Part shown: positions 1 to 35,972 of the stretch, in pieces
How positions within the stretch are numbered: position 1 is the stretch's first letter
How the letters are laid out: the number at the start of each line of letters is the position of its first letter
From: Lineus longissimus
Taxonomy: Eukaryota; Nemertea; Pilidiophora; Heteronemertea; Lineidae
Direction of reading: 5' to 3'
Assembly: GCF_910592395.1 (NCBI RefSeq)
Contig: NC_088324.1
Span: 1,302,001-1,366,000 of the forward strand
DNA: 64,000 nt
The notes under the pieces: model-generated
Databases searched by the model: none
What the model was told of the DNA's origin: nothing
The model's input: only the letters and a program-made list of their open reading frames with translations
Program-made: the position numbers and the translations under genes

Positions 1-2490
1 CTCTCACACATAAACCTATACATTTCTGAATAGCTTGTCGCTTCTAGAATACATCTGGCCAGCTTTCATTGTTATCAAGTAATTCAGTCATGAGAACATG
101 GGGGCAGCACAATACATGAGACACCCTGTACATCGATGAACATTTTGAAAATTTCGCCTTGCCGCCTTATAACTTGACAATTAACATGGATGGTGAAATA
201 ATATTTTTATAAACTTCTACTTATCACCTTGAGAAAGCCAAATAATAATAATTTTAAATTTTGATACCAAAATAGGGTGTCGTTGCGGCTTTTCTTTGAG
301 CATTTTGACCGCGAAGTCTCACCTTGAGAACATGTGCACTCTGACAGGAACCAGTTCACGTCAACATCCGATTGAGCTATACATAGCATGCGAGGCCTGG
401 TCACTGCGGACGTGCACAGAAGAAGCTGATATTTTCCTCAAATAATCGTCAGAGCTACCTCTTCACAAAATACCCAGGACACCGACATTTGAACATGCAG
501 CAATAGCGATATGATAGGCTCATCTGTATCCATGGTAATCGCCTGAGATTGAAGAACTTTTTTTTTAAGGGGGACCAATGTTGACCTGATCACCACTGGC
601 TAGTGAGACCATATTCAAGCTGACGGCGCCGCCTTATTCTTTCTACAATTGAATGTTAATAATTGTAAATCAGCAGGCGTGACCTATACATGTTGCAGAC
701 TCAATGTCACGTGGTTAGCCCGTCTGCTGTGTCCAATTTGCACGCAAAGAAATCACAACAAATTCAAATCTCAGGCTGCTTGTTGATTGGCTGTAGACTG
801 AGTGAACAGGCAATATCCAAATCGCCTGCCGCAAAGTGTGTAGCCTTTCGCAAAATAGTGACGACAAACATTATCAAAAAAGGGTATTAATTGACCGAAT
901 ATGACGGATCTTTTTAATGGAATCTCAATTTCTAAACATTTTGAAATTTTCTATCGAGAGAAAATGCGATATTTTTGCTGGATAAAGTATTGCAATTTTC
1001 TTGTAATAGTGATTAAACATTTGGGGCCAGGGTAATCATTGGAGCATAGTAAAATGTGGAATGATTAGCCTGGCACGGCGAGGGTGTGCTGTGTCCAGGA
1101 AATGGCGGTAAATGGGTTGTTCTCGGGCTGGGTTTCTCTAGCGGACTGATATCCGAGTTCGTCACAATAAGCGATGATATAGGTCTGTATATTCACTAGA
1201 AAAAGATGCGTGTCAAAGTGTCGAAATATGTAATGAATTATTTCGAGATGGTTTATGCGTTTTTAAGTGACATTCCGTGCATTGACACAGTCCAACATAA
1301 TTCACAGATCACAACACTACTGTTGTAAAAATGTTTGCGTCCACTACTCGCGCAGCGATCCGACATTCCTTCCCATGTTGTGGTATCTTAGAGTCCTAGC
1401 CAAGACGACGACCCATATTCGCCTAATGGCTTGTCATGGTTGGCACTGTATCGTACAAGAAGCATAAAGATAGCTTGAACAATTTAGCAATGTTTCGTTT
1501 CATATCGCGCTCTCTCAGTCATAAAATGGCATCGGCACTTCTGATTACCGTCCATCAAGGCATGCATATAAGCATGTGAGATACGAACGATGAGGCTGAG
1601 GTTGCTGAAGTAGACTGGAAAAGAAAAGTAATAATTGCCAAAGTGGTGAGCGACTGCAACAACCTGAGCATTTCTGTGTGCCTCCTCAGTCTAAAAACGC
1701 ACTCTTGTTGCTCGAATTTTACTACGGAGTTCCAGACCGTTTTTCTTTCCGACCTGCCCTCCTAGGCCCAGCTCCTACGTACCTGGTATACGGAAGCGAT
1801 AGCATTGGCATTGAGGCGTCTGGTACGCCCGTCACGTGACTGCATGATATGAAGTGGCTTCGGTATGTGTTTATTATTTTTTTCATTGTAAAAAACATCA
1901 TTCCTAAGGGACTTCATTCGATTGGTTGACACTAAAACAGTATGATATAACTGATTCAAACACATTCGACTGTAACGCGAAAGACGAAAGTTGTTCAAAC
2001 AAGCTATTGGTGAGGTAACACTCAGTTTTGAATATAGGGGGCTTTTGTAATTTGATTAGCCTTGACTCTTCCTAGGTTGGACTTATCTCACTGCTTCTGC
2101 GTGAAATAGTTCATTAAGACAAATGATTTTACACTGGGCCTCATTTTCGAGGCAGCGGTCTCAATTTCTTATCTTGAAGCATGCGACATTAAGATCTCGT
2201 GTTTCATTGCAGGCAAACTTGTAATCGCCTGGTAAAGCACTGGCCCAAACAAGTGATAACCGTCGCATGTGCTTTAAATCGCGGCTTTCACCAATCTAAA
2301 TCGCTCGTCTGTGGAGCTGTTACTATTTTTTGTCGCGTACGAGAGATTCTTTTAACTCACCATTTTTTGCACGATTATATTAAATTAATTGGACTTGTTG
2401 ATTGTACTGTCTTTAGCAGGTGGCAACATATTATATCATCGCAATTCTCTGCATATAAAGATGCTTCAACTCCGAGAATGCACTGCATTA
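1..2490. other. Non-coding stretch, no gene recognised
   Basis: Only short open frames with no recognisable protein motif are present on either strand. Base composition is moderately AT-rich with scattered homopolymer runs, such as a T run near 555. I see no RNA gene and no clear repeat. Confidence 0.5.
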
Positions 2491-2492
2491 TA

Positions 2493-3258
2493 CAGTGCGT
2501 ATCAACAAAAGGTAATCTAAAGTCAAGGGGTTAATATTCCAAGGCTATTTAGTTTCAGAAGCTACATGTGGTCTACTATTGAAGAGGATATCCTCAGATT
2601 TCCATTGATACCATTCTTGCGTTATTACGGTCTCGCATGACCGAGTAAATTGTAATAGAAAATGACGAGTTCAAATCGAAAATTTCCAAGTTTGTGCAAG
2701 TTGAATGAATACGTTCAAATTGTACGTTTACAAACTTAAAAAGATCAAAACGAACACGATTTTCTCAGGAATTATTTGGCTTTATTCAGAGATCTTCTTA
2801 TCTTGTATTTATGCACCCACACGTTCAACATGCCCTCCGCCTCTTGCAACACAAAGTTCACAGCGATAGAGCATGCCCTGAACTGCTTGTCTGATCACTG
2901 CTGGATTCCCGCGTAAAACATCCACTTCGTGTTGAATTCGGCCTCCAAGTCATTAAGATTACGGGAGGAGTCGCAAACACCTTGCTTTTCATGTATCCCC
3001 AAAGGAAAAAAGTGAGAGATAAGCCTGTAATCGTTTATTTCAATTCACCAAACTTGGACATTTTTTTGATTTGAGCTCGTCATTTTCAGTTACAATTTAC
3101 TCGGTCATGTGAAACCGCAATTAATGCAAGGATGGTATTATTGGAAAGCTGAGGATCTCCTCTTCATTAGTAAACCACATGTTAATCAGCTTGTTAAACT
3201 AAATAGTATTGTCATATTAACCCCATGAATTTGGATTACCTTTTTTTGATACGCACTG
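2493..3258. mobile_element. Tc1/mariner-like element with long inverted ends, non-autonomous
   Basis: The left end, CAGTGCGTATCA at 2493, is matched in reverse complement at 3247-3258. Both ends are bordered by TA (2491-2492 and 3259-3260), the target duplication expected for Tc1/mariner. The two arms stay alignable in inverted orientation for roughly 200 bp (about 2493-2705 against 3045-3258), so this is a long-TIR element. The middle carries a minus-strand transposase-like C-terminal remnant. At 766 bp it is too short to encode a whole transposase (usually about 340 residues), so it is a deletion derivative. It ends about 160 bp upstream of the ankyrin/Mab-21 ORF. Confidence 0.75.
2809..2970 (-). 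pseudogene. Transposase C-terminal fragment inside the Tc1/mariner-like element
   Basis: The reverse complement reads, in one frame ending at the TAA at 2811-2809, a peptide with segments EVDVLRGNPAVIRQAVQGML and YRCELCVARGGGHVE. A preceding DLEA segment lies in a neighbouring frame. The pattern of basic and aromatic residues ending in RGGGHVE resembles the C-terminal tail of Tc/mariner DDE transposases, which often end in a Gly-Gly-His-(F/V)-E motif. The frame change and short length mean it is a decayed fragment. The assignment comes from motif resemblance plus position inside a TIR element; no DDE residues are present. Confidence 0.5.
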
Positions 3259-3421
3259 TATTATGGAAATGTTTGATTTCCAGCTCCCAAGAACAGTCCA
3301 TGATGCCAGCCACACCGCCCCAACTTGCTCCGTTCGATGCAGCAGCATTCGGTTATTTTTGGCTTATCAGATTCCTCCTGTCATTCTGTGAACTGGAGTA
3401 CATATAAAGTACAAAAATTAC

Positions 3422-6400
3422 ATGGATCCCCTAATCATCATCGCCTCGATTATAGGAGACAAAAATCTTGTGGCTCAATTGATTACAGCCGGGGCGAATA
3501 TAGAATGGAAAGACAATGACGGGAATACTCCAATCATCATCGCCTCGACTAATGGACACCAAGAGGTGGTGGATCTATTGATTAAAGCGGGGGCGAATAT
3601 AGAATGTAAAGACAATGGCGGGGATACTCCAATCATCTTCGCCTCGATTAAAGGACACCAAGAGGTGGTGGATCTATTGATTAAAGCGGGGGCGAATATA
3701 GAACATACCAACAATGAGGGAAGAACTCCGTTTGGTTGTGTTTCGATTGAAGGACACAAAGAGGTGGTGGATCTATTGATTAAAGCGGGGGCGAATATAG
3801 AATGTATAGACAATGACGGATATACTCCAATCATCATCGCCTCGATTAATGGACACCAAGAGGTGGTGGATATGTTGATTAAAGCGGGGGCGAATATAGA
3901 ATGTAAAGACAATCGCGGGAATACTCCAATCATCATCTCCTCGATTGAAGGACACCAAGAGGTGGTGGATCTATTGATTAAAGCGGGGGCAAATATAGAA
4001 TGTAAAGACAATGACGGGAATACTCCAATCATCATCGCCTCGATTAATGGACACCAAGAGGTGGTGGATCTATTGATTAAAGCGGGGGCGAATATAGAAT
4101 GTAAAGACAATGGCGGGAATACTCCAATCATCATCGCCTCGACTAATGGACACCAAGAGGTGGTGGATCTATTGATTAAAGCGGGGGCGAATATAGAATG
4201 GAAAGACAATGGTGGGAATACTCCAATCATCATCGCCTCGACTATTGGACACAAAGAGGTGGTGGATCTATTGATTAAAGCGGGGGCGAATATAGAATGT
4301 AAAGACAATGACGGAGATACTCCAATCATCAACGCCTCGATTAATGGACACCAAGAGGTGGTGGATCTATTGATTAAAGCGGGGGCGAATATAGATCATG
4401 CCAACGATGAGGGAAGAACTCCTATAGGGTGTGTATCGATTGAAGGACATCAAGAGGTGGTGGATCTATTGATTAAAGCGGGGGCGAATATAGAATGTAA
4501 AGACAATGACGGAGATACTCCAATCATCATCGCCTCGATTAATGGACACCAAGAGGTGGTGGATCTATTGATTAAAACGGGGGCGAATATAGATCATGCC
4601 AACGATGAGGGAAGAACTCCTATAGGGTGTGTATCGATTGAAGGACATCAAGAGGTGGTGGATCTATTGATTAAAGCGGGGGCGAATATAGAATGTAAAG
4701 ACAAGGACGGGGATACTCCAATCATCATCGCCTCGATTGAAGGACACCAAGAGGTGGTGGATCTATTGATTAAAGCGGGGGCGAATATAGAACATACCAA
4801 CGATGAGGGAAGAACTCCTATAGGGTGTGTATCGATTGAAGGACACCAAGAGGTGGTGGATCTATTGATTAAAGCGGGGGCGAATATAGAATGTAAAGGC
4901 AATGGCGGGAATACTCCAATCATCATCGCCTCGACTAATAGACACCAAGAGGTGGTGGATATGTTGATTAAAGCGGGGGCGAATATAGAATGTAAAAGCA
5001 TTAGCGGGAATACTCCAATCATCATCGCCTCGATTAAAGGACACCAAGAGGTGGTGGATCTATTGATTAAAGCGGGGGCGAATATAGAATGTAAAGGCAA
5101 TGGCGGGAATACTCCAATCATCTTTGCCTCGGCTAATGGACACCAAGAGGTGGTGGATCTATTGATTAAAGCGGGGGCGAATATAGAATGTAAAGGCATT
5201 AGCGGGAATACACCAATCATCGTTGCCTCGATTAATGGACACCAAGATGTGGTGGATCTATTGATTAAAGCGGGGGCGAATATAGAATGTAAAGGCAATG
5301 GCGGGAATACTCCAATCATCATCGCCTTGATTAAAGGACACCAAGAGGTGGTGGATCTATTGATTAAAGCGGGGGCGAATATAGAATGTAAAGACAATGG
5401 CGGGAATACTCCAATCATCATCGCCTCGACTAATGGACACCAAGAGGTGGTGGATCTGTTGATTAAAGCGGGGGCGAATATAGAATGTAAAGACAATGGC
5501 GGGAATACTCCAATCATCAATGCCTCGATAAAAGGACACCAAGAGGTGGTGGATCTATTGATTAAAGCGGGGGCGAATAAAGAATGTAAAGACAATGGCG
5601 GGAATACTCCAATCATCATCGCCTCGATTAATGGACACCAAGAGGTGGTGGATCTATTGATTCAAGCCTGGGGCGAATATAGAATGTAAAGACAATAGCG
5701 GGAATACTCCAATCATCATCGCCTCGATTAAAGGACACCAAGAGGTGGTGGATCTATTGATTAAAGCGGGGGCGAATATAGAATGTAAAGGCAATGGCGG
5801 GAATACTCCAATCATCTTTGCCTCGGCTAATGGACACCAAGAGGTGGTGGATCTATTGATTAAAGCGGGGGCGAATATAGAATGTAAAGGCAATGGCGGG
5901 AATACTCCAATCATCATCGCCTCGATTGATGGATACAGAGAGGTGGTGGATCTATTGATTAAAGCGGGGGCGAATATAGAATGTAAAGACAAGGACGGGA
6001 ATACTCCAATCATCATCGCCTCGATTAATGGACACCAAGAGGTGGTGGATCTATTGATTAAAGCGGGGGCGAATATAGAATGTAAAAGCATTAGTGGGAA
6101 TACTCCAATCATCATCGCCTCGATTAATGGACACCAAGAGGTGGTGGATCTATTGATTAAAGTGGGGGCGGATATAGAATGTAAAGACAAGGACGGGGAT
6201 ACTCCAATCATCGTCGCCTCGACTGAAGGACATAAGGATATGGTGGATCTATTAGTTAAAGCGGGTGCATTTATTGAAATCAGTAACTATGAAAACGACA
6301 CTCCGATAGTTTGCGCAGCTAAATGGGGAAATGTTGAAATTGTAGACGTTTTGTTGAAAGAAGGTGCTTGTTCCAGAAGTTCTAGTCATGGATTGATATT

Positions 6401-8396
6401 AAATATCGGTGCAACGTTTGGTCGACGACGGGTCGTTGAATATATTTTGAGACGCGGAATGTCATTAGAAAGTCGTGACTTGAAAGGAAACACCCCACTT
6501 CAAAATGCAATCATAAAGGGTCATCTCTCAGTGGTCCAACTCCTAATAAGGAGTGGAGCAGATACATCCACATCAAACTTTTCGTCGGAGAGTATTATAT
6601 ATTCTGCTGCTTCGTGTGGCCATGCTGATATGGTGAAATACTTGGGAAGCAGAGGTGCACAGAAGTTATTGGATTTGCCCAATGCCAGTGGGTGGTCGCC
6701 TATTGCCAAGGCAGTTTCAGGTGGTCATTTTCGGACAGTTAGACAACTTCATCAGCTTGGAGCTGACATGAACTGCAGTGTAAATGGAAAAGGACTGCTT
6801 CATCTAGCAGCTGAGTCCGGTTGCCTAGATATCTATCAATATCTTATTATCGCTGGGCTTGACTGCAAACGACCTAACATCCATGGATTGAAGGCTTATG
6901 AATGCTTCCCCTTTCAATCAAAACTTAATTATCAAGCAAGCAACCGATTAGGACATTCCTCCGAACAAAGTCTCTCTTACGTCATGTCGCGATTAAATGA
7001 GCAATATGCTACACCCGCGTATAGATACAAACTTTCAGAACTATCTGGTGTACTTGGACTAGGCAGCGTGAATATTATCGAGGGTGGTGTTTCAGAAACT
7101 ATCATGGGGTTTGTAAGGGAGAAGGAGGTTGTTAAGGGTTCAGAGTTATGCGGAAGTTCGGCTGAGGGCACGAAGGTTCAGCTGCCTGATGAAATGGACT
7201 TCCTTAGATTGGTATCTGCAAATCATCTCTCTCGAAACGAAATGGTTGATACCTTACATGGATATAAGTATATACAAACTAGTACAATTAAGAACAGGTT
7301 TTTATCAAGTAAAGCACTCCATGAGAGTGCAAGCCAAAACCTAGAATCTAGCGCAAAAGCCCAAGAGTCTAAAAAAAGCGGAGAAATCCTTTTGCAGGCA
7401 GTTGCTGGAGGAGGCGGTGCCAGTGTTCCTGTGACTATCAGATGGCCCGATGATAAACCTTTAAAACGCATTGTCTCAGATCATATAGTAACAACCTTAC
7501 CAGTAGATGATTGGCCTGATGATTGGCAAGATGATTGGTCCAATTATGCACTACAGAAAGGAGAATCTGAAAGTGAGGTAACGGCGGACGTTTGTGTTTA
7601 TCAACGGACCGGATGCATCTTATCTCAAGTTGATGCTAGAAGAGGATTGGCCAGTGTTCCTGTGACTATCAAAAGGCTTGAAAATATATCATCCAGTCTC
7701 CTTATCTCTGTGGATATAGTACCGATATTTCATGTTGATGATTGGCCAGACGATGCTATCAAGAAGACCTGGCGAATGGACGAGGACACCTTGAGGAAGA
7801 GTGGGTATAGGCTGGTCCTGAAACCGCCACACAAGGACAGTGAGTACGGACGGTTGCTACCCGAGGAAGACAGAGAAAGAATGTTGCGGATCTCCTTCTC
7901 TCATCTAGAACCTGTCACAATCGCACCTTTGGATCCAAGAATCAAAGACGCATACATCACAGCAAAGTGTCTGAGGTCACCTATGGCATGTGGCGTTGTG
8001 ATTAAAGACACGAACGGCGTCATACATTTCGTCAGTCACTTCCTTACAAGCTACCTCCTGAAGACAGTCTTCCTTCATAACATAGACGACTTCCTTGAGA
8101 CAAACAGGAGCCTGCCAGAGATGGTCTACATCATCTACAGCAAACTTGAGGAGTATCTCGGCAAGGGCAACCTACCGTTCTACTGGCAGCCCAGCGTCAA
8201 TCTGCTGGAAGGCTTGAAACTCAACATAGCCAAGTCTCATCAAGTCGCCAAGCTGATGAAGGCAATCGTTGGTAGGATGTCCCGCCTGGAGCGTGTTGAT
8301 GAGAACCATGGTGACGACGCGAGGGAAGATGGGCCAGGCATTGAAGCCGCTGATGACGAGCCTGACATAGGTTGTTACATCGTCAAATTAGAATAG
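3422..8396 (+). CDS. Ankyrin-repeat / Mab-21 (cGAS-like) nucleotidyltransferase fusion, interrupted by one frameshift
   Basis: This is an essentially intronless ORF in two pieces (3422-5689 and about 5670-8396) joined by a 1-nt insertion near 5668; if corrected it gives about 1,657 residues. Residues 1 to about 1,160 form about 35 ankyrin repeats of the G-TP-x-GHQEVVDLLIKAGA type; the first 28 are near-identical and the last seven diverged. The C-terminal part matches the Mab-21/cGAS fold. It has a GSSAEGT motif (7152-7172), acidic pair E-x-D in PDEMDF (E 7191, D 7197), a third acid in SVDIVP (D 7713), then RISFSHLE, SYLLKTVFLHN and LPFYWQPSVNLLEG. In the family these motifs bind metal and nucleotide (cGAS E225/D227/D319 equivalents), and intact cGAS-like receptors make cyclic dinucleotides after sensing nucleic acid. 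Enzymatic activity and immune role here are inference. I chose the ATG at 3422 because an in-frame TGA lies at 3389; an upstream exon is possible, since repeat 1 starts mid-motif. The alternative is a catalytically inert Mab-21 protein or a recent pseudogene. Confidence 0.85.
3424..6240 (+). repeat. 99-bp coding tandem array (ankyrin units 1-28)
   Basis: About 28 direct repeats of exactly 99 bp (33 codons) lie end to end. Most units differ at only a few sites, mainly the variable loop residues (IECKDNGGN, IEHTNDEGR, IECKSISGN, IDHANDEGR types) and the first helix. Some neighbouring unit pairs recur as blocks, for example the IDHANDEGR/IGCVSIEG pair at about 4390-4490, 4588-4685 and, as IEH, 4788-4850. 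This points to unequal exchange of multi-unit blocks. Long open frames on the minus strand here are shadows caused by the multiple-of-3 period. Confidence 0.95.
7035..8320 (+). other. Mab-21/cGAS-like nucleotidyltransferase domain with internal duplication
   Basis: This is the catalytic domain segment of the fusion ORF. The order is: helical lead-in; GSSAEGT and PDEMDF (7152-7200); a helical stretch; a first ASVPVTI strand (from 7419) followed by SDHIV and VDDWPDDW; a second ASVPVTI strand (from 7650) followed by ISVDIVP and VDDWPDD; then the C-terminal helical lobe. The two ASVPVTI starts are 231 bp (77 codons) apart and share a 22-bp identical DNA segment, so a 77-codon piece containing the third catalytic strand was duplicated in tandem. 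The first copy sits at the usual spacing from the E-x-D pair; the second has the canonical SVD motif and continues into the C-lobe. Confidence 0.75.
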
Positions 8397-13734: not shown

Positions 13735-14475
13735 ATGTGAATTGGGCAACCTACCTACCAAACCCTTCTCACGGTGAAAGACAATTGGACAATCTGCTCA
13801 CCACACCCGTCTGGTGGTAAAGGACAATTGGTCAATCTGCTTACCACACCCGTCAGGTGGTAAAGGACAATTGGTCAATCTGCTTACCACACCCGTCTGG
13901 CGGTAAAGGACAATTGGTCAATCTGCTTACCACACCCGTCTGGCGGTAAAGGACAATTGGTCAATCTGCTTACCACACCCGTCTGGTGGTAAAGGACAAT
14001 TGGTCAATCTGCTCACCACACCCGTCTGGCGGTAAAGGACAATTGGTCAATCTGCTCACCACACCCGTCTGGCGGTAAAGGACAATTGGTCAATCTGCTT
14101 ACCACACCCGTCTGGTGGTAAAGGACAATTGGTCAATCTGCTTACCACACCCGTCTGGTGGTAAAGGACAATTGGTCAATCTGCTTACCACACCCGTCTG
14201 GCGGTAAAGGACAATTGGTCAATCTGCTTACCACACCCGTCTGGTGGTAAAGGACAATTGGTCAATCTGCCTACCACACCCGTTTGGTGGTAAAGGACAA
14301 TTGGTCAATCTGCTTACCACACCCGTCTGGCGGTAAAGGACAATTGGTCAATCTGCTTACCACACCCGTCTGGCGGTAAAGGACAATTGGTCAATTTGCT
14401 TACCACACCTGTTTGGTGGTAAAGGACAATTGGTCAATCTGCTTACCACACCCGTCTGTCGGTAAAGGACAATTA
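13735..14475. repeat. 43-bp minisatellite
   Basis: About 17 direct copies of a 43-bp unit (core GGTAAAGGACAATTGGTCAA, then TCTGCTTACCACACCCGTCT) lie end to end. Unit starts at 13861 and 13904 confirm the period. Units differ mainly at TGG[T/C]GG and CT[T/C]ACC. Degenerate versions extend left to about 13610, so the array has an old edge and a homogeneous core. The period is not a multiple of 3 and it carries no long ORF. Confidence 0.95.
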
Positions 14476-14550
14476 TATATATTATGTTGGGCAACATGTA
14501 TGGTGGCTTATTGTCCTTTGTAATAAGCAAGGCCTACAACTGTCTTTGCA

Positions 14551-17270
14551 TGGTCTCAACCGAGGCCGTATTGGGATGCAAAGCGCTTACCTGCCATCAA
14601 ACCGGTCTCAACCAGCACTTTCTTACAATGCAAAGCGCCTACCTCCCATCAAACTGGTCTCAACTGGCACTTACTTGCCATGCAAGGCGCTTACCTGCCA
14701 TCAAACTGGACACAACCGGCACTGTCTCGCAATGCAAGACGCGTACCTGCCATTAAACTTTGGTCTCAACCGGTACTGTCTTGCCACGCAAGGCGCTTAC
14801 CTGCAATCAAACTTTGGTCTCAATCGGTACTGTCTTACAATGCAAGGCGCTTACCAGCCATCAAACTTTGGTCTCAACCGGTACTGTCTTACAATGCAAG
14901 GCACTTAACTGCCATCAAACTTTGGTCTCAACCGGTACTGTCTTGCCATGCAAGGCGCATACCTGCCATCAAACTTTGGTCTCAACCGGTACTGTCTTAC
15001 AATGCAAGGCACTTAACTGCCATCAAACTTTGGTCTCAACCGGTACTGTCTTGCCATGCAAGGCACTTACCTGCCATCAAACTTTGGTCTCAGCCGGTAC
15101 TGTCTTACAATGCAAGGCACTTACCTGCCATCAAACTTTGGTCTCAACCGGTACTGTCTTGCCATGCAAGGCGCTTACCTGCCATCAAACTTTGGTCTCA
15201 ACCGGTATTGTCTTGCCATGCAAGGCACTTACCTGCCATCAAACTTTGGTGTCAACCGGTACTGTCTTGCCATGCAAGGCGCTTACCTGCCTTCAAACTT
15301 TCGTCTCAACCGGTACTGTCTTGCAATGCAAGACGCTTACCTGCCATCAAACTTTGGTCTCAACCGGTACTGTCTTACAATGCAAGGCGCTTACCTGCCA
15401 TCAAACTTTGGTCTCAACAGGTACTGTCTTGCCATGCAAGGCACTTACCTGCCATCAAACTTTGGTCTCAACCGGTACTGTCTTGCAATGCAAGGCACTT
15501 ACCTGCCATCAAACTTTGGTCTCAACCGGTACTGTCTTACAATGCAAGGCGCTTACATGCCATCAAACTTTGGTCTCAACCGGTACTGTCTTGCAATGCA
15601 AGACGCTTACCTGCCATCAAACTTTGGTCTCAACCGGTACTGTCTTGCCATGCAAGGCGCTTACCTGCCATCAAACTTTGGTCTCAACCGGTACTGTCTT
15701 ACAATGCAAGGCGCTTACCTGCCATCAAACTTTGGTCTCAACCGGTACTGTCTTACAATGCAAGGCGCTTACCTGCCATTAAACTTTGGTCTCAACCGGT
15801 ACTGTCTTACAATGCAAGGCGCTTACCTGCCATCAAACTTTGGTCTCAACCGGTACTGTCTTACAATGCAAGACACTTACCTGCCATCAAACTTTGGTCT
15901 CAACCGGTACTGTCTTACAATGCAAGGCGCTTACCTGCCATTAAACTTTGGTCTCAACCGGTACTGTCTTGCAATGCAAGGCGCTTACCTGCCATTAAAC
16001 TTTGGTCTCAACCGGTACTGTCATGCAATGCAAGGCACTTATCTGCCATCAAACTTTGGTCTCAACCAGCACTGTCTTGCCATGCAAGGCGCTTACCTGC
16101 CATTAAACTTTGGTCTCAGCCGGTACTGCCTTGCAATGCAAGGCACTTACCTGCCATCAAACTTTGGTCTCAGCCGGTACTGCCTTGCAATGCAAGGCAC
16201 TTACCTGCCATCAAACTTTGGTCTCAGGTACTGTCTTGCAATGCAAGGCACTTACCAGTCATCAAACTTTGGTCTCAGCCGGTACTGTCTTGCAACGCAA
16301 GGCACTTACCAGTCATCAAACTTCGGTCTCAACCGGTACTGTCTTGCAATGCAAGGCACTTACCTGCCATCAAACTTTGGTCTCAACCAGCACTGTCTTG
16401 CAATGCAAGGCGCTTACCTGCCATCAAACTTTGGTCTCAACCGGCACTGTCTTGCAATGCAAGGCACTTACCTGCCATCAAACTTTGGTCTCAACCAGCA
16501 CTGTCTTGCAATGCAAGGCACTTACCTGCCATCAAACTTTGGTCTCAACCAGCACTGTCTTGCAATGCAAGTCACTTACCTGTCATCAAACTTTGGTCTC
16601 AACCGGTACTGTCTTGCAATGCAAGGCACTTAACCAGCACTGTCTTACAATGCAAGGCGCTTACCTGCCATCAAACTGGTCTCAACCGGTACTGTCTTGC
16701 ATTGCAAGGCACTTACCTGTCATCAAACTTTGGTCTCAACCAGCACTGTCTTGCAATGCAAGGCACTTACCTGTCATCAAACTTTGGTCTCAACCAGCAC
16801 TGTCTTACAATGCAAGGCGCTTACCTGCCATCAAACTGGTCTCAACCGGTACTGTCTTGCATTGCAAGGCACTTACCAGTCATCAAACTTTGGTCTCAGC
16901 CGGTACTGTCTTGCAATGCAAGGCACTTACCAGTCATCAAACTTTGGTCTCAGCCGGTACTGTCTTGCAACGCAAGGCACTTACCTGCCATCAAACTTTG
17001 GTGTCAACCGAGACTGTCTCGCAATGCAAGACGCTTACCTGCCATCAAACTTTGGTCTCAACCGGTACTCTCTTGCAATGCAAGACGCTTACCTGCCATC
17101 AAACTTTGGTCTCAACCGAGACTGTCTTGGGTAGCAAGGCGATCACTTCAGCTCAAACTTTGGTCTTAACCTTGACTGTCTTGGGTAGCAAGGCGCTCAC
17201 TTCAGCTCAAACTTTGGTCTCAACCGAGACTGTCTTGAGTAGCAAGGCGCTCAAATCAGCTCAAACTGAA
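14551..17270. repeat. 54-bp minisatellite (about 50 units)
   Basis: Direct units of 54 bp (words AACTTTGGTCTCAACCGGTA, CTGTCTTGCAATGCAAGGCG, CTTACCTGCCATCA) fill the interval. Variation alternates between CTTGCC/CTTACA/CTTGCA and GGCGC/GGCAC/GACGC. A few units lack the ACTTT segment (about 16672, 16832), and the rightmost three units (17107-17260) are a diverged type with GGGTAGCAAGGCG. Because 54 is divisible by 3 and the unit lacks stops, all three + frames are open for long distances (one for 829 codons). That looks like coding but needs no coding function. It most likely lies in an intron of the minus-strand GTPase gene. Confidence 0.95.
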
Positions 17271-17319
17271 GGCGCTCACTTGTGCCATGGATTTTTAAAT
17301 GATGGAATATGATACTTAC

Positions 17320-17604
17320 GGTATTCGGGTAAGACAGCGGCCGCAGTCTGTCATAGTCGCCTTGCCCCGCCGTGTCCCATAGTCCAAGGTTAACTGGTAC
17401 GCCACTGAACATGACGTTTGTGCTATAGTTATCAAACACGGTGGGGATATGGTTTTCCTTAAAGGTATCTGTGGAATAGCTTATCAGCAGGCACGTCTTT
17501 CCCACCGTACCGTCGCCGACCACCACGCACTTTATCTGGACCTTGCCATCACCAGATTGGGCGACAGACGAGGTGTCATCATCGGCGATGTTCTCAGACG
17601 ACAT
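17320..17604 (-). CDS. First coding exon of a Rac/Rho-family small GTPase (partial gene)
   Basis: The minus-strand ATG is at 17604-17602 and the exon ends at 17320 before a GTAAGT donor, in phase 0. It encodes 95 residues: a 23-residue acidic/Ser-rich N-terminal extension (starts [10 protein letters not shown]), then [17 protein letters not shown] (P-loop), [11 protein letters not shown] (switch I, Thr kept), and [19 protein letters not shown] (switch II; the catalytic Gln is kept, the next Glu is Gly). The splice site after SYPNT is exactly where Rac/Cdc42-type genes have an intron and matches the + strand neighbour at 22703. The remaining exons (TKxD, CaaX) should lie to the left but none was recognised. 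The gene may be split by the arrays, have short exons, or be a relic. Confidence 0.8.
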
Positions 17605-18480
17605 CTCTAACACAAGAAGTGTTCTTTCCCTATAATGTTGTTGGAGTGGCTTGTTCCCTTTCGTTAGGTATTTCGAGAGTGTCCTTTCTTAGTCGTGCGA
17701 GTGTCCTTTATTTGGAGGTTGAGAAAGTGACTGTGCGTCATCGGCTTCGGAAGCTAATAGGGCACTTGACAATGCTTCATCTGATGTATCTTCTGAACTC
17801 TTGTAGGGTGGTTTCTGGGATTCCGCTCAAGTATTGTTTACATAGATCAGTCCATTTGGAGTGCAATAGAAAACCTAACCTTTAAAGATAAACAAGAGAA
17901 GCCATTTGAACGACACTATAAACTCGGCCGTTCTTTGTCCTTTACTCAGCCACCAGACTCGGCGAAATATCTACTGCTGTGCATGAAAAGGTCCACCCCT
18001 GTTCGACAACAATTATCCCATCCTTCACACTTTAGTACTTAACGGGCCCTGTTGGACAATTTGGGAATGATGACGTTGCCACAATTCGGCTGATATCCAC
18101 ACGGTCAACACTGGGTTTAGAGAAGGATAGGAGTTCAAACGAAGGTGAACTACATGTTTATCCTACCTCGATTTGCTAGTAATGTGGTCAGATTCCAAAG
18201 AGTGGCAGACGATGACTACCGTGGTTAAAGAAATGTCTGCGCAATCTTCCGTGTATGGTAAATCAACTTATCTGACCTCTCCGATCAAATATACAAACAT
18301 ATTTATAGCATACCAGGAGAAGCGTCATCACTGACAATAGTGGGTCAAGTATGAAATGATATCGATCGTAAACTTTCACCGAAGTCTGGTCTTTACGCTT
18401 CAGTCAGGAGAGAATCAATTATAGTGTGGTTTGAGACGCTCGTCAGTTGACAGAACTCCACATGGAAAATGGACATCCTT
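17605..18480. other. 5' flank between divergent GTPase genes
   Basis: This lies upstream of the minus-strand GTPase exon. No coding motif was recognised, and no promoter element is clear enough to call. Confidence 0.35.
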
Positions 18481-21449
18481 TTAGCATTGCTCGCTTCTTG
18501 GCCAATCGCTAGACCCTTTAGCATTTTCTCCTTGGCCTATCGCTAGACCCTTTAGCATTTTCTCCTTGGCCTATCGCTGGACCCTTTAGCATTGTTTTCC
18601 TTGGCCTATCGCTAGACCATTTAGCGTTGTTCTCCTTGGCCATTCGCTGGACCCTTTAGCATTTTCTCCTTGGCCTGTCGCTAGACCATTTAGCGTTGTT
18701 TTCCTTGGCCTATCGCTAGACCCTTTAGCGTTGTTTTCCTTGGCCTATCGCTAGACCATTTAGCGTTGTTCTCCTTGGCCATTCGCTAGACCCTTTAGCA
18801 TTTTCTCCTTTGCCTATCGCTAGACCATTTAGCATTGTTCTCCTTGGCCTATCGCTAGACCCTTTAGCGTTGTTTTCCTTGGCCTATCGCTAGACCATTT
18901 AGCATTGTTCTCCTTGGCCTATCGCTAGACCCTTTAGCGTTGTTTTCCTTGGCCTATCGCTAGACCCTTTAGCGTTGTTTTCCTTGGCCTATCGCTAGAC
19001 CCTTTAGCGTTGTTTTCCTTGGCCTATCGCTAGACCCTTTAGCGTTGTTTTCCTTGGTCTATCGCTAGACCATTTAGCGTTGTTTTCCTTGGCCTGTCGC
19101 TAGACCCTTTAGCGTTGTTTTCCTTGGCCTGTCGCTAGACCCTTTAGCGTTGTTTTCCTTGGCCTATCGCTAGACCCTTTAGCGTTGTTTTCCTTGGCCT
19201 ATCGCTGGACCCTTTAGCGTTGTTTTCCTTGGCCTATCGCTAGACCATTTAGCATTGTTCTCCTTGGCCTATCGCTAGACCCTTTAGCGTTGTTTTCCTT
19301 GGCCTATCGCTAGACCCTTTAGCGTTGTTTTCCTTGGCCTATCGCTAGACCCTTTAGCGTTGTTTTCCTTGGCCTATCGCTAGACCCTTTAGCGTTGTTT
19401 TCCTTGGTCTATCGCTAGACCATTTAGCGTTGTTTTCCTTGGCCTGTCGCTAGACCCTTTAGCGTTGTTTTCCTTGGCCTGTCGCTAGACCCTTTAGCGT
19501 TGTTTTCCTTGGCCTATCGCTAGACCCTTTAGCGTTGTTTTCCTTGGCCTATCACTGGACCCTTTAGCGTTGTTTTCCTTGGCCTATCGCTAGACCCTTT
19601 AGCGTTGTTTTCCTTGGCCTATCGCTAGACCATTTAGCGTTGTTTTCCTTGGCCTGTCGCTAGACCCTTTAGCGTTGTTTTCCTTGGCCTATCGCTAGAC
19701 CCTTTAGCGTTGTTTTCCTTGGCCTATCGCTAGACCCTTTAGCGTTGTTTTCCTTGGTCTATCGCTAGACCATTTAGCGTTGTTTTCCTTGGCCTGTCGC
19801 TAGACCCTTTAGTGTTGTTTTCCTTGGCCTGTCGCTAGACCCTTTAGCGTTGTTTTCCTTGGCCTATCGCTAGACCCTTTAGCGTTGTTTTCCTTGGCCT
19901 ATCGCTGGACCCTTTAGCGTTGTTTTCCTTGGCCTATCGCTAGACCATTTAGCATTGTTCTCCTTGGCCTATCGCTAGACCCTTTAGCGTTGTTTTCCTT
20001 GGCCTATCGCTAGACCCTTTAGCGTTGTTTTCCTTGGCCTATCGCTAGACCCTTTAGCGTTGTTTTCCTTGGCCTATCACTAGACCCTTTAGCGTTGTTT
20101 TCCTTGGTCTATCGCTAGACCATTTAGCGTTGTTTTCCTTGGCCTGTCGCTAGACCCTTTAGCGTTGTTTTCCTTGGCCTGTCGCTAGACCCTTTAGCGT
20201 TGTTTTCCTTGGCCTATCGCTAGACCCTTTAGCGTTGTTTTCCTTGGCCTATCGCTGGACCCTTTAGCGTTGTTTTCCTTGGCCTATCGCTAGACCCTTT
20301 AGCGTTGTTTTCCTTGGCCTATCGCTAGACCATTTAGCGTTGTTTTCCTTGGCCTGTCGCTAGACCCTTTAGCGTTGTTTTCCTTGGCCTGTCGCTAGAC
20401 CCTTTAGCATTGTTTTCCTTGGCCTATCGCTAGACCATTTAGCGTTGTTTTCCTTGGCCTATCGCTAGACCATTTAGCATTGTTCTCCTTGGCCTATCGC
20501 TAGACCCTTTAGCGTTGTTTTCCTTGGCCTATCGCTAGACCCTTTAGCGTTGTTTTCCTTGGCCTATCGCTAGACCCTTTAGCGTTGTTTTCCTTGGCCT
20601 ATCGCTAGACCCTTTAGCGTTGTTTTCCTTGGTCTATCGCTAGACCATTTAGCGTTGTTTTCCTTGGCCTGTCGCTAGACCCTTTAGCGTTGTTTTCCTT
20701 GGCCTGTCGCTAGACCCTTTAGCGTTGTTTTCCTTGGCCTATCGCTAGACCCTTTAGCGTTGTTTTCCTTGGCCTATCGCTGGACCCTTTAGCGTTGTTT
20801 TCCTTGGCCTATCGCTAGACCCTTTAGCGTTGTTTTCCTTGGCCTATCGCTAGACCATTTAGCGTTGTTTTCCTTGGCCTGTCGCTAGACCCTTTAGCGT
20901 TGTTTTCCTTGGCCTATCGCTAGACCCTTTAGCGTTGTTTTCCTTGGCCTATCGCTAGACCCTTTAGCGTTGTTTTCCTTGGTCTATCGCTGGACCCTTT
21001 AGCGTTGTTTTCCTTGGCCTATCGCTAGACCCTTTAGCGTTGTTTTCCTTGGCCTATCGCTGGACCCTTTAGCGTTGTTTTCCTTGGCCTATCGCTAGAC
21101 CCTTTAGCGTTGTTTTCCTTGGCCTATCGCTAGACCATTTAGCGTTGTTTTCCTTGGCCTATCGCTAGACCCTTTAGCGTTGTTTTCCTTGGCCTATCGC
21201 TAGACCCTTTAGCGTTGTTTTCCTTGGCCTATCGCTAGACCCTTTAGCGTTGTTTTCCTTGGCCTGTCGCTAGACCCTTTAGCGTTGTTTTCCTTGGCCT
21301 ATCGCTAGACCCTTTAGCGTTGTTTTCCTTGGCCTATCGCTAGACCCTTTAGCGTTGTTTTCCTTGGCCAATCGCTAGACCATTTAGCGTTGTTCTCCTT
21401 GGCCATTCGCTGGACCCTTTAGCATTTTTCTCCTTGGTCATTCGCTGGA
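18481..21449. repeat. 35-bp satellite with higher-order 350-bp organisation
   Basis: About 85 direct units of 35 bp (TCCTTGGCCTATCGCTAGAC, CCTTTAGCGTTGTTT); edge units at the left are shorter and more diverged. Units carry diagnostic variants: GGTCT for GGCCT, GTCGC for ATCGC, TGGAC for TAGAC, CATTT for CCTTT, AGCATTGTTC. The GGTCT variant recurs at about 19056, 19406, 19756 and 20106 (steps of exactly 350 bp), then 20631 (525) and 20981 (350). Ten-unit blocks are therefore repeated as wholes. The word CGCTA...TAGCG gives each unit a short potential stem. It is not a CRISPR: there are no unique spacers. Confidence 0.95.
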
Positions 21450-28570: not shown

Positions 28571-28843
28571 GCAATGCTTGTTTTCTCTTGCTACTGTATA
28601 TAAAGTCACGCTGTACATTTGCCACTCAGTCATTTGTTAATTAAATGTTTGTGGTTATTGTAATGACTTGTTTCTTCATTTATCAACCGTGGTTATAATT
28701 AAAGCATGAGTGGCCCGACAGGAGGCGAAGATATGAGTTCACCTCTGCAAGAATGGTTCGGGTCGTCTACTAAAATGACGGTTACGTAACTGAAGACATG
28801 TCCCATCACAATCAGGTCGACTTTGTCGTGCTGGATCGGTACA

Positions 28844-29234
28844 CGTAAGGCAGACGTTACATAGAGCTTGACGCTTCACTCCTCACGCCTCATGCTTCAC
28901 GGTTCACTCGTGAACCGAAGAATTTCCAAGGCATTTCAACTTAGGCCCTCATTTTTTCCTATGTAACAGGGCTCATTGAAATACCTTGTGAACCGTGAAG
29001 CATGAGGCGTGAGGAGTGAAGCGTGAAGCTCTAGACGTTACATAGAGCTTCACGCTTCACTCCTCACGCCTCATGCTTCACGGTTCACTCGTGAACCGAA
29101 GAATTAACAAGGTATTTCAATGAGCCCTGTTGCCTAAGTTGAAATGCCTTGGAAATTCTTCGCGTCACGAGTGAACCGTGAAGCATGAGGCGTGAGGAGT
29201 GAAGCGTGAAGCTCTATGTAACGTCTGCCTTACG
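28844..29234. mobile_element. Foldback element, nested palindromes (391 bp)
   Basis: The outer ends CGTAAGGCAGACGTTACATA and its mirror (…TATGTAACGTCTGCCTTACG) border four alternating copies of a segment rich in TTCAC words (CTTCACTCCTCACGCCTCAT). Two are forward (about 28864-28915 and 29047-29096) and two reversed (about 28988-29030 and 29165-29212). The left and right halves are also mirror images around about 29038. No target duplication was recognised. It can form a large hairpin or cruciform. Confidence 0.85.
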
Positions 29235-29920
29235 GGTCACTGAGGTAAAAGACCCTCTGCATTAGTGGCAGCAAAGTGAAGCAACATTTTATATCTGGCT
29301 TACGACTCGGATTGAAAATCCCGAAAAGATCCTGATTTTATACGATTCCGGCCATTCATTAACGAGATATATATACATATTTGCTAACTAGCGGCCTGCC
29401 CAAGAATCAGATCAGACGGAAATGTTATCTACATGGTCAGCAGTTGTCAGGATAGACACTTCCCAAAGACAAGGTGACCTGCCAGTACCACGATGTCGCC
29501 ATCTATATGAAGAAACTGGAACGTCGACCTTCCCGAAAGAGCATCTGACCGTACAAGTTGAAATGTGTTATTTAGTTATTTCACTTTCCTTTATCACGAT
29601 ATTCTACTTATTTCTGACTATCGGTTGGAACAACTAGAGCCTGTATGCTGTTACTGAAGCAAATGAGATTGATTTGCTCTCACTAGTGTGAAAAAGTGTG
29701 GTGCAACTCGATTTGAAATGTAACATGTACTCTTTCTATGCCTAATCCATTGAAATATGTACTCTTATGATAGAAACCATTGCAATCAATTCGGGTAAAA
29801 CGGCGATTCCTTTAAATACAATGAAACAGATGTGCAGCATCTAAGGTTACACAGACTAAAACAGATTTGTTCGTACCGTGGAGTGATCATGTTACTCGAT
29901 GCCAACTCCAACATCGGGTG
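29235..29920. other. Non-coding stretch
   Basis: No recognisable gene. A 71-codon + ORF at 29422 ends in a hydrophobic stretch but has no family signature. Confidence 0.35.
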
Positions 29921-31565: not shown

Positions 31566-32119
31566 GTGGTGCCAGCGCGAGGAATGGAAGGTATGAGACC
31601 CGCACCACACCAGAGAGTGAATCTCAAAATCGAACCCATGACTGAAGCACTTCACCACCCCATCGAGGAGTAACAATCAAGAATTGTATCTATGACTAAC
31701 ACGCTACAACATCACGTTAATGAGGGGTAAATATATACATATTCAAACCCAAGGCTTACGTTCTTGAGGAGTTAATCCCAAGAATGGAACCCATGACCAA
31801 GCATTACACCATCCACAATATGGAGGTACGGCTATTCTGTGGCCGTTTTAGCCAAAGGTTAATTTTAGGAAGACAAAATGGCGGTGTCAAAAATAATGGT
31901 CGCTCTCCCATTGCGATCGTTGCTTTCTTTGCGCAAAGTCCAGTAAGCCCTCTTAAATAACTAGATTTGATGATAAAAATGTAAACTTTACGTCCTATTC
32001 ATCATTTTTGTAAAATGTGTCGCATGTCTTCCAAATTTGCATCTAAAAGCTTCGTAAAACAATGGCTACTTTTGTAAAACACCCTGCGTGCCTTAGTGTT
32101 TGTCGATTAAATGTTTCAG

Positions 32120-32761
32120 GTGGTATGTCGAGCTGTGGTTCGTGGCTTCTTCTCGGACCTAGGATCGAGTCCAAACCAAGCGGCCTTGGTGGCCTAACCC
32201 TATCTACCGTAGGAGCCACAACTCTCACCACCGGCCCTGAAGGTATCAACGCATGGGTTTTCACCGGGCATAACTACGTCAAGATAACCAGTGACGGAAA
32301 GCTGGATATTGAGCGTGATAGTTTCACAATCGCGACTTATCTTTACCAAGACGTACTTAGAGACGAAATAATCGTGGAGTGGAGAGGAAGAGGAGATTTC
32401 GGAACTCACATGTGCATTTATCAAGGCAAGCTTTTGATCAACATGGATGCCCATACTGGACGCAGCCTTGGTGAATTTCATATTGCTCCACCAACTAAGA
32501 AATGGTCGTTCGTAGGGATCAGCTACAGTCAACAAACTGGCAATTTGGTGATGTGGGTCGATGGTAATGTTGTCATCAAGAATGTCGGAGCCATAGGACT
32601 CCGAGACATGTTGGGTGATTTGTACGTTGGACTCAGGCCGGCAAATGGTGGGTCCAAATTCACGGGAAAGCTGGCCGGAACAACGCTGATGAGATGTGCA
32701 GTCAGTGGTAAGACCCAGATCGAGGAACTTAGGAAGCTGATCATAAGTAGAGCCAAACCTG
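32120..32761 (+). CDS. LamG/concanavalin-A-like lectin exon, copy 1
   Basis: This 642-nt, phase 1-1 exon has acceptor TTTCAG and donor GTAAGT. It encodes a whole domain: SSCGSWLLLGPRIESKPSG, NAWVFTGHNYVKI, then SFTIATYLYQD, WSFVGISYSQQTGNLVMWVD, and GKLAGTTLMRCAVSG. The pattern (F-x-G..Y..I; SFTI..W/Y; W..V..SY....G....VDG; LY.G) is that of the Laminin_G_3/jelly-roll fold, which binds glycans or proteins outside cells. Cysteines near both ends (SSC and MRC) could form the usual disulphide. One exon per domain with equal phases allows in-frame duplication. Confidence 0.85.
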
Positions 32762-33732
32762 GTAAGTTTAAACACGATGCTCTTTCTACCACGTGGGTAA
32801 ATCATTAGAATACGAAGGTTTACCTGACGATGAGTTTTCCCTCACAGCAGTCTTCTGATGTGATGAATTATCTTCTTATCTGAAATGTCGGTATTCGAAT
32901 TACATCGTGAATACATAACACTTTTTTTGTTCTCGATCTGGCGGCGTATGCCCAGTAACCACAGACATAGTCTCGTCATCTACCAGGCATACTTCGCCCG
33001 ATATGTCCGTTTAACCAAGCAATAACTAAGTTATTGTTCTGACGGTTTGGGTAAGAATAACCTAGCAAGGCCTATTTCGGCGAAAAACTCTGACCATCTG
33101 ACCCTAATGTCATGCGTATCGTAGGAACGTTTGCCATCGAAGCGCATGGGGTATGTGGGCCTCTCTGCAATTCGGCATCGGCTTCTTAACAGCTTCCAAA
33201 TGCATATGATGAGAAAGTTATCAATCACAATAGACTTTAAGCTGGGAGACAGTAGTTCGATCTATTCTGAACTGCTTTATTCTCATCACTCTTCAAAGTA
33301 TGCAAATTGGTTCTTTGTTTTAAGGAGACAGCACGAGGCTGTCTCCTCACTCGCAAAAAGTAGCTAAGCTAACGCAACGATCTACTCTACAACTTGGACG
33401 TTTGCAGTGAGTACTCTCTCTATGTAGCCGGTTTGGCAAATAAATATATATTTCTCAAATTTTGGCCAAATCGGTCCATAATCAATCTATATACAGTGTT
33501 GTGTTAGTCATTCTGAGTGTATCTAGGGGATAAAAGTGCAATTGGTCGCACTCGGCTGCGATATCGAGCTCCGAGTAGAACTTTTCATCTTGTGCAGCAT
33601 CCGAGCGGCGTATTTCGGCTCGAAATTACCCCACGGCCAACTCTCTCATATAACTAGATGCATCCGAACCATCTCTCTCATATAACCAGATGCGCCATCT
33701 CTGTCATATAACTGGATTTGATGTTAAAGATG

Positions 33733-33901
33733 TAATGCCAAATTCATAAAGGGCTTTTAGCTTAAAACAGCGTTTAACTACTAAATAGAGAGATTCAGGT
33801 CCTTCATGTAAATCTTCCCAGAATATGAATAGGCCCCGAAACTGATTAGGGAGAAGTTACAGACGACTAACCCTTAAACGCCCTTTATGAATTTGGCCCT
33901 A
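33733..33901. mobile_element. TA-flanked MITE, intron copy between LamG 1 and 2
   Basis: The element at 33735-33899 has terminal repeat GCCAAATTCATAAAGGGC at the left, mirrored at the right, and TA on both sides. It is 165 bp without coding capacity, of Tc1/mariner insertion type. Confidence 0.8.
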
Positions 33902-34045
33902 CTTTATGTTCCTATTCATTATTTGTTTCAAATGTGTCACATGTCTTCAAAATTTGCATCTAAAAGCTTGGTGCTCGCCAAATTTTGATGATAGCACCTT
34001 TCGTGCCTTAGTGTTTGTCGATTAAGTGTTCGATTTCTGTTTCAG

Positions 34046-34687
34046 GTGGTATGTCGAGCTGTGGCTCGTGGCTTCTTCTCGGACCTAGGATCGAGTCCAA
34101 ACCAAGCGGCCTTGGTGGCCTAACCCTATCTACCGTAGGAGCCACAACTCTCACCACCGGCCCTGAAGGTATCAACGCATGGGTTTTCACCGGGCATAAC
34201 TACGTCAAGATAACCAGTGACGGAAAGCTGGATATTGAGCGTGATAGTTTCACAATCGCGACTTATCTTTACCAAGACGTACTTAGAGACGAAGCAATCG
34301 TGGAGTGGAGAGGAAGAGGAGATTTCGGAACTCACATGTGGATTTATCAAGAAAAGCTTTTGATCAACATGGATGCCCATACTGGACGCAGCCTTGGTGA
34401 ATTTCATATTGCTCCACCAACTAAGAAATGGTCGTTCGTAGGGATCAGCTACAGTCAACAAACTGGCAATTTGGTGATGTGGGTCGATGGTAATGTTGTC
34501 ATCAAGAATGTTGGTGCCATAGGACTCCGAGACATGTTGGGTGATTTGTACGTTGGACTCAGACCGGCAAATGGTGGGTCCAAATTCACGGGAAAGCTGG
34601 CCGGAACAACGCTGATGAGATGTGCAGTCAGTGGTAAGGCCCAGATCGATGAACTTAGGAAGCTGATCATAAGTAGAGCCAAACCTG
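34046..34687 (+). CDS. LamG exon, copy 2
   Basis: Same length (642 nt), phase and borders as copy 1. It is the most different of the three: EAIVEW for EIIVEW, HMWIYQEK for HMCIYQGK, KAQIDELR for KTQIEELR. The mid-domain Cys of copies 1 and 3 is Trp here (codon about 34339), so only the terminal Cys pair is common to all copies and the mid-domain Cys is probably unpaired in copies 1 and 3. Confidence 0.85.
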
Positions 34688-35659
34688 GTAAGTTTAAACA
34701 CGATGCTCTTTCTACCACATGGGTAAATCATTAGAATACGAAGGTTTACCTGACAATGAGTTTTCCCTCACAGCAGTCTTCTCATGTGATGAATTATATA
34801 TTCTTATCTTGAATGTCGGTATTCGAATTACATCGTGAATACGTCCACTGTTTTTGTTCTTGATCTGGCGGCGTATGCCCAGTAACCACAGACATAGTCT
34901 CGTCATATACCAGGCATATTTCGCCCGATATGTCCGTTTAACCAAGCAATAACTAAGTTATTGTTCTGACGGTTTGGGTAAGAATAACCTAGCAAGGCCT
35001 ATTTCGGCGAAAAACTCTGACCATCTGACCCTAATGTCATGCGTATCGTAGGAACGTTTGCCATCGAAGCGCATGGGGTATGTGGGCCTCTCTGCAATTC
35101 GGCATCGGCTTCTTAACAGCTTCCAAATGCATATGATGAGAAAGTTATCAATCACAATAGACTTTATGCTGGGAGACAGTAGTTCGATCTCATCTGAACT
35201 GCTTTATTCTCATCACTCTTCAAAGTATGCAAATTGGTTCTTTGTTTTAAGGAGACAGCACGAGGCTGTCTCCTCACTCGCAAAAAGTAGCTAAGCTAAC
35301 GCAACGATCTACTCTACAACTTGGACTTTTGCAGTGAGTTCTCTCTCTATGTAGCCGGTTTGGCAAATAAATATATATTTCTCAAATTTTGGCCAAATCG
35401 GTCCATAATCAATCTATATACAGTGTTGTGTTAGTCATTCTGAGTGTATCTAGGGGATAAAAGTGCAATTGGTCGCACTCGGCTGCGATATCGAGCTCCG
35501 AGTAGAACTTTTCATCTTGTGCAGCATCCGAGCGGCGTATTTCGGCTCGAAATTACCCCACGGCCAACTCTCTCATATAACTAGATGCATCCGAACAATC
35601 TCTCTCATATAACCAGATGCGCCATCTCTGTCATATAACTGGATTTGATGTTAAAGATG

Positions 35660-35828
35660 TAATGCCAAATTCATAAAGGGCTTTTAGCTTAAAACAGCGT
35701 TTAACTACTAAATAGAGAGATTCAGGTCCTTCATGTAAATCTTCCCAGAATATGAATAGGCCCCGAAACTGATTAGGGAGAAGTTACAGACGACTAACCC
35801 TTAAACGCCCTTTATGAATTTGGCCCTA
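35660..35828. mobile_element. TA-flanked MITE, intron copy between LamG 2 and 3
   Basis: The element at 35662-35826 is a duplicate of the one at 33735-33899, exactly 1,927 bp away, with the same flanking TA. It was copied with the LamG unit rather than inserted independently. Confidence 0.8.
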
Positions 35829-35972
35829 CTTTATGTTCCTATTCATTATTTGTTTCAAATGTGTCCCATGTCTTCAAAATTTGCATCTAAAAGCTTGGTG
35901 CTCGCCAAATTTTGATGATGGCACCTTTCGTGCCTTAGTGTTTGTCGATTAAATGTTCGATTTCTGTTTCAG

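Follow-up and report, generated by a model that had tools for sequence, protein, structure and literature searches.

Cyclic dinucleotide-type immune enzymes related to cGAS have been described in animals as cGAS-like receptors (cGLRs), and in one survey (Li et al. 2023, PMC9980059) a cGLR is described by three properties: homology to both the nucleotidyltransferase core and the helix bundle, a structure predicted to resemble that of cGLRs, and the active-site motif h[QT]GS X8-20 [DE]h[DE]h X50-90 h[DE]h. Elsewhere membership of the cGLR superfamily is assigned by the PF03281 domain (PMC10732462). Fusions of ankyrin repeats to a cGLR are known from animals, for example Stylophora pistillata (PMC9980059). 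A second group of relevant systems comes from fungi, where NLR proteins carry ankyrin arrays of near-identical units with changes concentrated on the binding face; the markers given for such arrays are more than 85% identity over at least 100 amino acids, diversifying selection on the concave face and repeat-number polymorphism between individuals, and repeats with this high internal conservation amount to 0.8% of metazoan repeats (PMC4986451). Here we describe a gene that recalls both groups, in a 64,000-nucleotide stretch of the nemertean Lineus longissimus (NC_088324.1, positions 1,302,001 to 1,366,000, forward strand), hereafter the window. A long, homogeneous ankyrin array precedes a Mab-21-type domain that carries active-site letters of cGAS type, and the differences between the ankyrin units are skewed towards the predicted binding face. 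We consider the chances evenly balanced that this is a gene of the Mab-21 family whose ankyrin array is a diversifying binding module, with catalytic activity as a possibility.

The ankyrin array and its reading frames

The original prediction for this locus, made from the letters alone, had placed about 35 ankyrin repeats and an intact catalytic triad in one open reading frame (ORF). The repeat count agrees with ours (a cap, 28 units and about six to seven degenerate repeats, the last counted by eye), and the motif letters are where they had been reported (GSSAEGT at 7152, E at 7191, D at 7197 and the D of SVD at 7713). The single ORF has to be given up, as there are two plus-strand ORFs in different frames (3392-5689 and 5661-8396), with the change falling inside unit 22; the "frame-corrected" residue numbering used earlier implies that the frame change had been seen then as well. 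The features of the gene are as follows.

3392-5689, plus strand: ORF 1, first ATG at 3422; ankyrin cap and 22 units (Pfam Ank_2, 717.5 bits)
3512-6284, plus strand: homogeneous ankyrin units, 28 of 99 nucleotides, 27 of them in frame
5661-5689, plus strand: overlap of ORF 1 and ORF 2, where the reading frame changes
5661-8396, plus strand: ORF 2, 911 open codons; rest of the homogeneous array, degenerate repeats and Mab-21-type domain
6285-6905 (end approximate), plus strand: degenerate ankyrin repeats
7152-7202, plus strand: GSSAEGT...DEMDF, G-S loop and E-x-D, with an 11-residue spacing as in human cGAS
7380-7523, plus strand: duplication copy 1, 48 amino acids, with His in place of the catalytic-type Asp of copy 2
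7524-7610, plus strand: linker between the copies, 29 residues, its start inside a degenerate 12-nucleotide repeat (7505-7538, DDW)
7611-7754, plus strand: duplication copy 2, 48 amino acids, with ISVDIV and the third acidic residue at 7713-7715; overlaps the PF03281 match
7689-7910, plus strand: PF03281 match (Mab-21 nucleotidyltransferase), scoring its cut-off of 24.1 bits over profile positions 121-191 of 197
8037-8219, plus strand: PF20266 match (Mab-21_C helical lobe), 33-35.5 bits (cut-off 24.1)

As assembled, ORF 1 leaves its frame within ankyrin unit 22 and ends, after 22 units, without the catalytic-type domain. The spacing from unit 22 to unit 23, where the frame changes, is 100 nucleotides as against the usual 99. 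The two frames were left unjoined, and all protein analyses of the C-terminal part were made on ORF 2 or on pieces of it.

The homogeneous array was recovered by Tandem Repeats Finder as 28.6 copies of 99 nucleotides (3433-6265), and in protein terms the cap is followed by 28 units of 33 residues and then by the degenerate units, to about 6900. Pfam ankyrin models match above their cut-off (Ank_2, 717.5 and 242.9 bits), which places the product among the ankyrin proteins, and a PDB search is headed by designed ankyrin proteins and ankyrins (among the best 60 of 386 sequences at E up to 1e-10). The repeats also matched other Pfam models, EPSP synthase and Response_reg among them; these matches are taken as artefacts of repetition, no single stretch passing alone.

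The 27 in-frame units show a mean amino-acid identity of 86.2% to their consensus and 78% to one another over pairs, figures that, when set beside the published threshold of more than 85% (PMC4986451), have to be read as our own identity computation made with a different program. The differences between them are unevenly distributed: 66 of the 123 non-synonymous unit differences fall on the 7 of 33 positions that form the paratope of designed ankyrin repeat proteins (DARPins; permutation p 0.00015). These seven positions, 2, 3, 5, 13, 14, 26 and 33, were set in advance, and they agree broadly with the varying positions in the DARPin rows listed from the PDB. At the paratope positions the ratio of non-synonymous to pooled synonymous differences (pN over pooled pS) is 2.04 (codon bootstrap 1.26-3.41), and at the remaining positions it is 0.58 (0.27-1.09). 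The surface ratio is 2.12 when the 25 distinct units alone are counted; without the four units of the GRTP class (23 of 27 left) it is 2.83 (1.67-5.13), with 0.73 elsewhere. Because variation concentrates in this way on the predicted paratope, the earlier suggestion that the array is a binding module, for sensing or for a partner protein, gains support, and we would infer such a role from the pattern. No homogenised ankyrin array in a cGLR was found in the titles and abstract openings of the literature searched.

The Mab-21-type domain and its internal duplication

A relationship to the Mab-21/cGAS-like superfamily is supported by profile matches and by a match to a known structure, rather than by alignment to human cGAS. 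The predicted Mab-21 C-lobe is well recovered: three scans gave PF20266 (Mab-21_C) scores of 33.0, 34.5 and 35.5 bits, above its cut-off of 24.1, which assigns the domain to that family. PF03281, the profile proposed earlier as a check, gave a divided result: no match appeared in ORF 2 (E up to 0.1), in the 470-residue domain or in three N-side pieces (E up to 10), and a match that just reached the cut-off (24.1 bits, E 4.2e-5) appeared when 7611-8393 was scanned alone, one of the six stretches scanned. The best match in the PDB is 8gjw, "cGAS-like receptor 1" (E 1.9e-4 with the 470-residue domain, 9.5e-5 with 7611-8393), and 7lt2, "Mab-21 domain-containing protein", also matches (E 0.0048 and 0.0013, respectively). 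NCBIfam gave no match. With PADLOC the N-half had a single, weak match (E 0.024) to a type I specificity subunit, which is taken as chance. An AlphaFold2 (AF2) model of the 470-residue domain, built from the single sequence without an alignment, has a mean predicted local distance difference test score (pLDDT) of 31.5, too low to serve the test proposed in the original prediction, whether the three acidic residues share one active site in the fold. A tblastn search of the window with the domain returned the domain itself and no second Mab-21 copy. Pattern searches for relatives matched 3 times among viral and 30 times among prokaryote contigs, none of the matches being confirmed by tblastn; both collections are poor places to seek relatives of an animal gene.

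In the N-terminal half of the domain the recognisable element is the active-site motif. Its exact form with the cGAS spacing, GS-X11-E-h-D-h (h standing for A, V, I, L, M, F, Y, W or C), occurred in 11 of 5000 shuffles of the 470-residue domain. The looser GS-X8-20-[DE]h[DE]h, in which the published [QT] is dropped, occurred in 511 of 5000, and the same pattern followed by h[DE]h 50-200 residues on in 426 of 5000. Since these looser patterns are common in shuffled sequence, the motif alone is weak evidence.

Downstream of the motif lies an internal duplication that had previously gone unreported. Its two copies, at an offset of 231 nucleotides, are 67% identical, and their 48 residues align without gaps. 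The local DNA score of 104 compares with 19.6 +/- 3.2 in 300 shuffles (maximum 43), the protein score of 90 was reached by none of 1000 shuffles, and blastn of the window against itself also recovered the duplication. When the copies are compared in register, a His of copy 1 stands opposite the Asp of SVD in copy 2. They differ at 12, 14 and 21 sites of first, second and third codon position, respectively, with a non-synonymous divergence (dN) of 0.37 and a synonymous divergence (dS) of 0.65, so that both copies look as though they had evolved as coding sequence under mild constraint. The 12-nucleotide repeat runs from the end of copy 1 into the linker. Copy 2 is taken here as the presumptive working copy, since the PF03281 match overlaps it.

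Weighing the explanations

In the reading that we favour, recombination would homogenise the ankyrin units while their contact residues diversify. The array would bind a foreign or modified protein, by which the C-terminal domains would be brought together or opened, and the Mab-21 domain would then make a nucleotide second messenger or relay the signal through protein contact. If the domain is catalytic, the 77 extra residues introduced by the duplication would loop out of the fold. Catalysis seems to us slightly more likely than not, because the sole recognisable part of the N-half is an active-site motif at exactly the cGAS spacing and because, of the two duplicate strands, it is the downstream one that retains SVD. 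A bolder version can be held only tentatively and seems rather doubtful: the gene would encode an animal immune receptor whose homogenised, DARPin-like ankyrin array diversifies by repeat shuffling, in the manner of the incompatibility genes of fungal NLR type, and is coupled to a cGAS-like nucleotidyltransferase, and proteins, not nucleic acid, would trigger second-messenger synthesis.

A number of observations weigh against the favoured reading, beginning with the array. Paratope positions vary more freely in any ankyrin protein. For whole units dN/dS is 0.80, and our test of selection is a simple count on one allele, over units that are not independent and that show 26 synonymous differences. 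The fungal study applied HyPhy tests to concave-face selection (PMC4986451), whereas our ratios come from simple counting. A single-sequence AF2 model made for the cap together with eight ankyrin units is also poor (mean pLDDT 38.9), and the gene as assembled is split over two frames.

The remaining objections concern the catalytic domain. The letters of the triad are present, as predicted; calling it intact was too strong, as the acidic motifs (E-x-D to SVD) stand 171 residues apart where human cGAS has 91. This gap is due to the internal duplication, whose strand pair and linker interrupt the predicted catalytic region with 77 extra residues and may have destroyed its core. The published cGLR motif (PMC9980059) differs from the sequence in two places, LCGS standing for h[QT]GS and the X50-90 spacing being exceeded: h[DE]h occurs at 127, 142, 169 and 379 residues after E-x-D, and nowhere within 50-90. 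Neither a Mab-21 profile in Pfam nor a cGLR structure in the PDB matched the half that carries GSS and E-x-D; a PDB search with 7020-7300 gave no match, and one with 7020-7523 gave two unrelated matches only (E 0.15 and 1.1). Against human cGAS the N-half aligns at the GS/E-x-D motif with a score that 80 of 2000 shuffles reached for the N part of cGAS and 178 of 2000 for the whole; the C-side piece aligns at ISVDI, WP and FSH with a score reached in 88 of 2000 shuffles, and copy 1 and copy 2 taken singly do no better than shuffles (1527/2000 and 959/2000). Of the two lobes, then, the helix bundle (PF20266) is well above its cut-off and the core (PF03281) is borderline and matched in its last third only. 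The cGAS-like enzyme of the original prediction is thus upheld as to its Mab-21/cGAS-like relationship (PF20266, 8gjw) and weakened as to its catalytic region, which is interrupted and departs from the published pattern. We assign the gene to the Mab-21 family rather than to the cGLRs, although its product may still act like a cGLR.

The duplication invites the explanation that it broke the core and left a catalytically dead ankyrin-Mab-21 protein, now a scaffold or a kinase enhancer. We judge this unlikely, while giving it more weight than the other alternatives considered here. The width of the gap between the acidic motifs, the unrecognisable first half and the absence of an Asp in register in copy 1 all speak for it, as does the shrimp Mab21 precedent, in which the proteins bind IKK-epsilon and made no cyclic GMP-AMP (cGAMP) in the tests reported (PMC12928593). 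The retention of three acidic residues and the GS loop while the rest of the N-half drifted argues the other way, being unexpected without selection for catalysis. If the duplicated segment were instead spliced out, a nucleotidyltransferase of normal size would result. Removal of 77 codons would bring the spacing to 94, near the 91 of cGAS, and two of the 12 best among 111 in-frame GT-AG pairs (7212-7556 and 7309-7629) would bring it to 56 and 64, within the published 50-90. The best pair by our own simple consensus scoring is, however, another one, 7309-7401 (donor 4.6, acceptor 5.7), which lies at the 90th-95th percentile of the GT/AG sites of the window from position 5000 on and removes just the start of copy 1, leaving most of the duplication in place; the two pairs with published spacing score below it, and copy 1, in the same frame, has the look of coding sequence. 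Splicing therefore seems a very improbable way out.

There is also the frame change at 5661-5689 to be accounted for. Were it real, the part downstream would not be translated with the array, and the gene would be a decaying or recently killed copy, for which the duplication and the slippage repeat within the enzyme part could be taken as further signs. Such decay is improbable in our judgement, somewhat more so than the bolder receptor model set out above. The frame change is the single disruption, with no further stop, across 4.97 kb, and 703 codons are open from 6285 onward, which in random sequence of the same composition has a chance of about 2e-19; these two facts make an assembly error, or a fault of a single allele, a likelier cause than the age of a pseudogene long decayed. 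The dN of 0.37 against a dS of 0.65 between the duplicate copies likewise speaks against decay. Assembly quality bears on the question in both directions: for the WD40 repeat arrays of Podospora NLRs, long-read assemblies are described as reliable and short-read ones as unreliable (PMC12222747), so the array here is probably correct if the window derives from long reads, which would speak for decay, and the unreliability of short-read assemblies speaks against it.

The favoured reading of a Mab-21-family gene with a diversifying array matters for what such receptors might recognise. The ligands reported for animal cGLRs are DNA and RNA, and some cGLRs have no known ligand (PMC9980059); an ankyrin array whose contact face varies would suggest that the ligands are proteins, and would suggest a route by which an animal without antibodies could renew receptor specificity. 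The duplication across the active site makes it possible to ask directly whether such fusions work as enzymes or as scaffolds. The feature is real at the scale of a gene: its architecture is a known one, its active site had been overstated, and its repeat pattern is of interest.

Surroundings and comparison with known systems

Directly upstream of the ankyrin ORF, ending 156 bases before its first ATG, is a transposon-like element:

2486-3265, no strand assigned: inverted-terminal-repeat element with arms of about 200 nucleotides, 86-88% complementary in three outer blocks

Between its arms a minus-strand reading is suggestive of the end of a transposase.

Repetition is common in the rest of the window. 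Three large minisatellites occupy 13740-21437 (17 copies of 43 nucleotides, about 50 of 54 nucleotides, as 38.7 and 11.6 in two rows, and 84 of 35 nucleotides); Pfam matches on the minisatellite ORFs at 14-17 kb were set aside as repeat artefacts, no stretch passing alone. An ORF at 31985-36927 is present in three tandem copies, 95-97% alike, the first of which, the one scanned, matches LamG_3 (PF13385, 28.7 bits, cut-off 27.6). Two inverted arrays of a 15/32-nucleotide GGGGACGAATTTTCC-type repeat lie face to face at 37319-38205, and a palindrome of about 400 nucleotides, 79% self-complementary, lies at 28841-29237. Four tandem blocks of about 5.6-5.8 kb each, 94-97% alike, fill 39184-61983; among the ORFs scanned, those of the first copy contain VWD, C8, TIL and EGF domains and one of the fourth copy contains VWD. 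This has the appearance of a VWD-rich gene of mucin/zonadhesin type growing by internal duplication. Together with the Mab-21 domain, the LamG and VWD/C8/TIL/EGF exons point by themselves to an animal source. An ORF at 24230-24634 matches a Ras-family GTPase (63.6 bits), of which it has the latter half. Rfam and ARAGORN gave no match anywhere in the window.

Among described systems, the multi-domain Mab-21 fusions of PMC8195603 (HEPN, DED-TRADD-N, TPR) resemble this gene in joining a Mab-21-like cGAS domain to repeat or adaptor domains, and the fusion described there differs from it in lacking an ankyrin array. The shrimp Mab21 proteins, as reported in PMC12928593, are likewise invertebrate members of the Mab-21 family; the immune role is that of the shrimp proteins, which act through contact with IKK-epsilon and without cGAMP synthesis. 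Human cGAS has GS, E-x-D and ISVDI in the same order as here, and with 8gjw, cGAS-like receptor 1, the SVD/VD-WP strand, the RISF(S/T)H motif and the helical lobe align; the present gene departs from both in its long N-terminal ankyrin array and in an N-half that has no profile or PDB match.

The repeats find their closest parallel in the PNP_UDP/NACHT/ANK NLRs of Podospora (Dyrka et al. 2014, PMC4986451), which as described there share near-identical units with changes on the binding face. Here, in contrast, the gene is from an animal, known from one allele, no NACHT domain was seen, and the output domain is of Mab-21 type. The novelty that the original prediction saw in the domain order holds for vertebrate cGAS; the order itself is not new, since ankyrin-cGLR fusions of animals were published in 2023 (PMC9980059). 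From those fusions, as they are described, the present gene differs in an active-site pattern that falls outside their motif, partly through the duplication, and in being assembled in two frames; like them, it unites ankyrin repeats with a cGAS-like domain in a single gene and has kept the GS, E-x-D and SVD letters.

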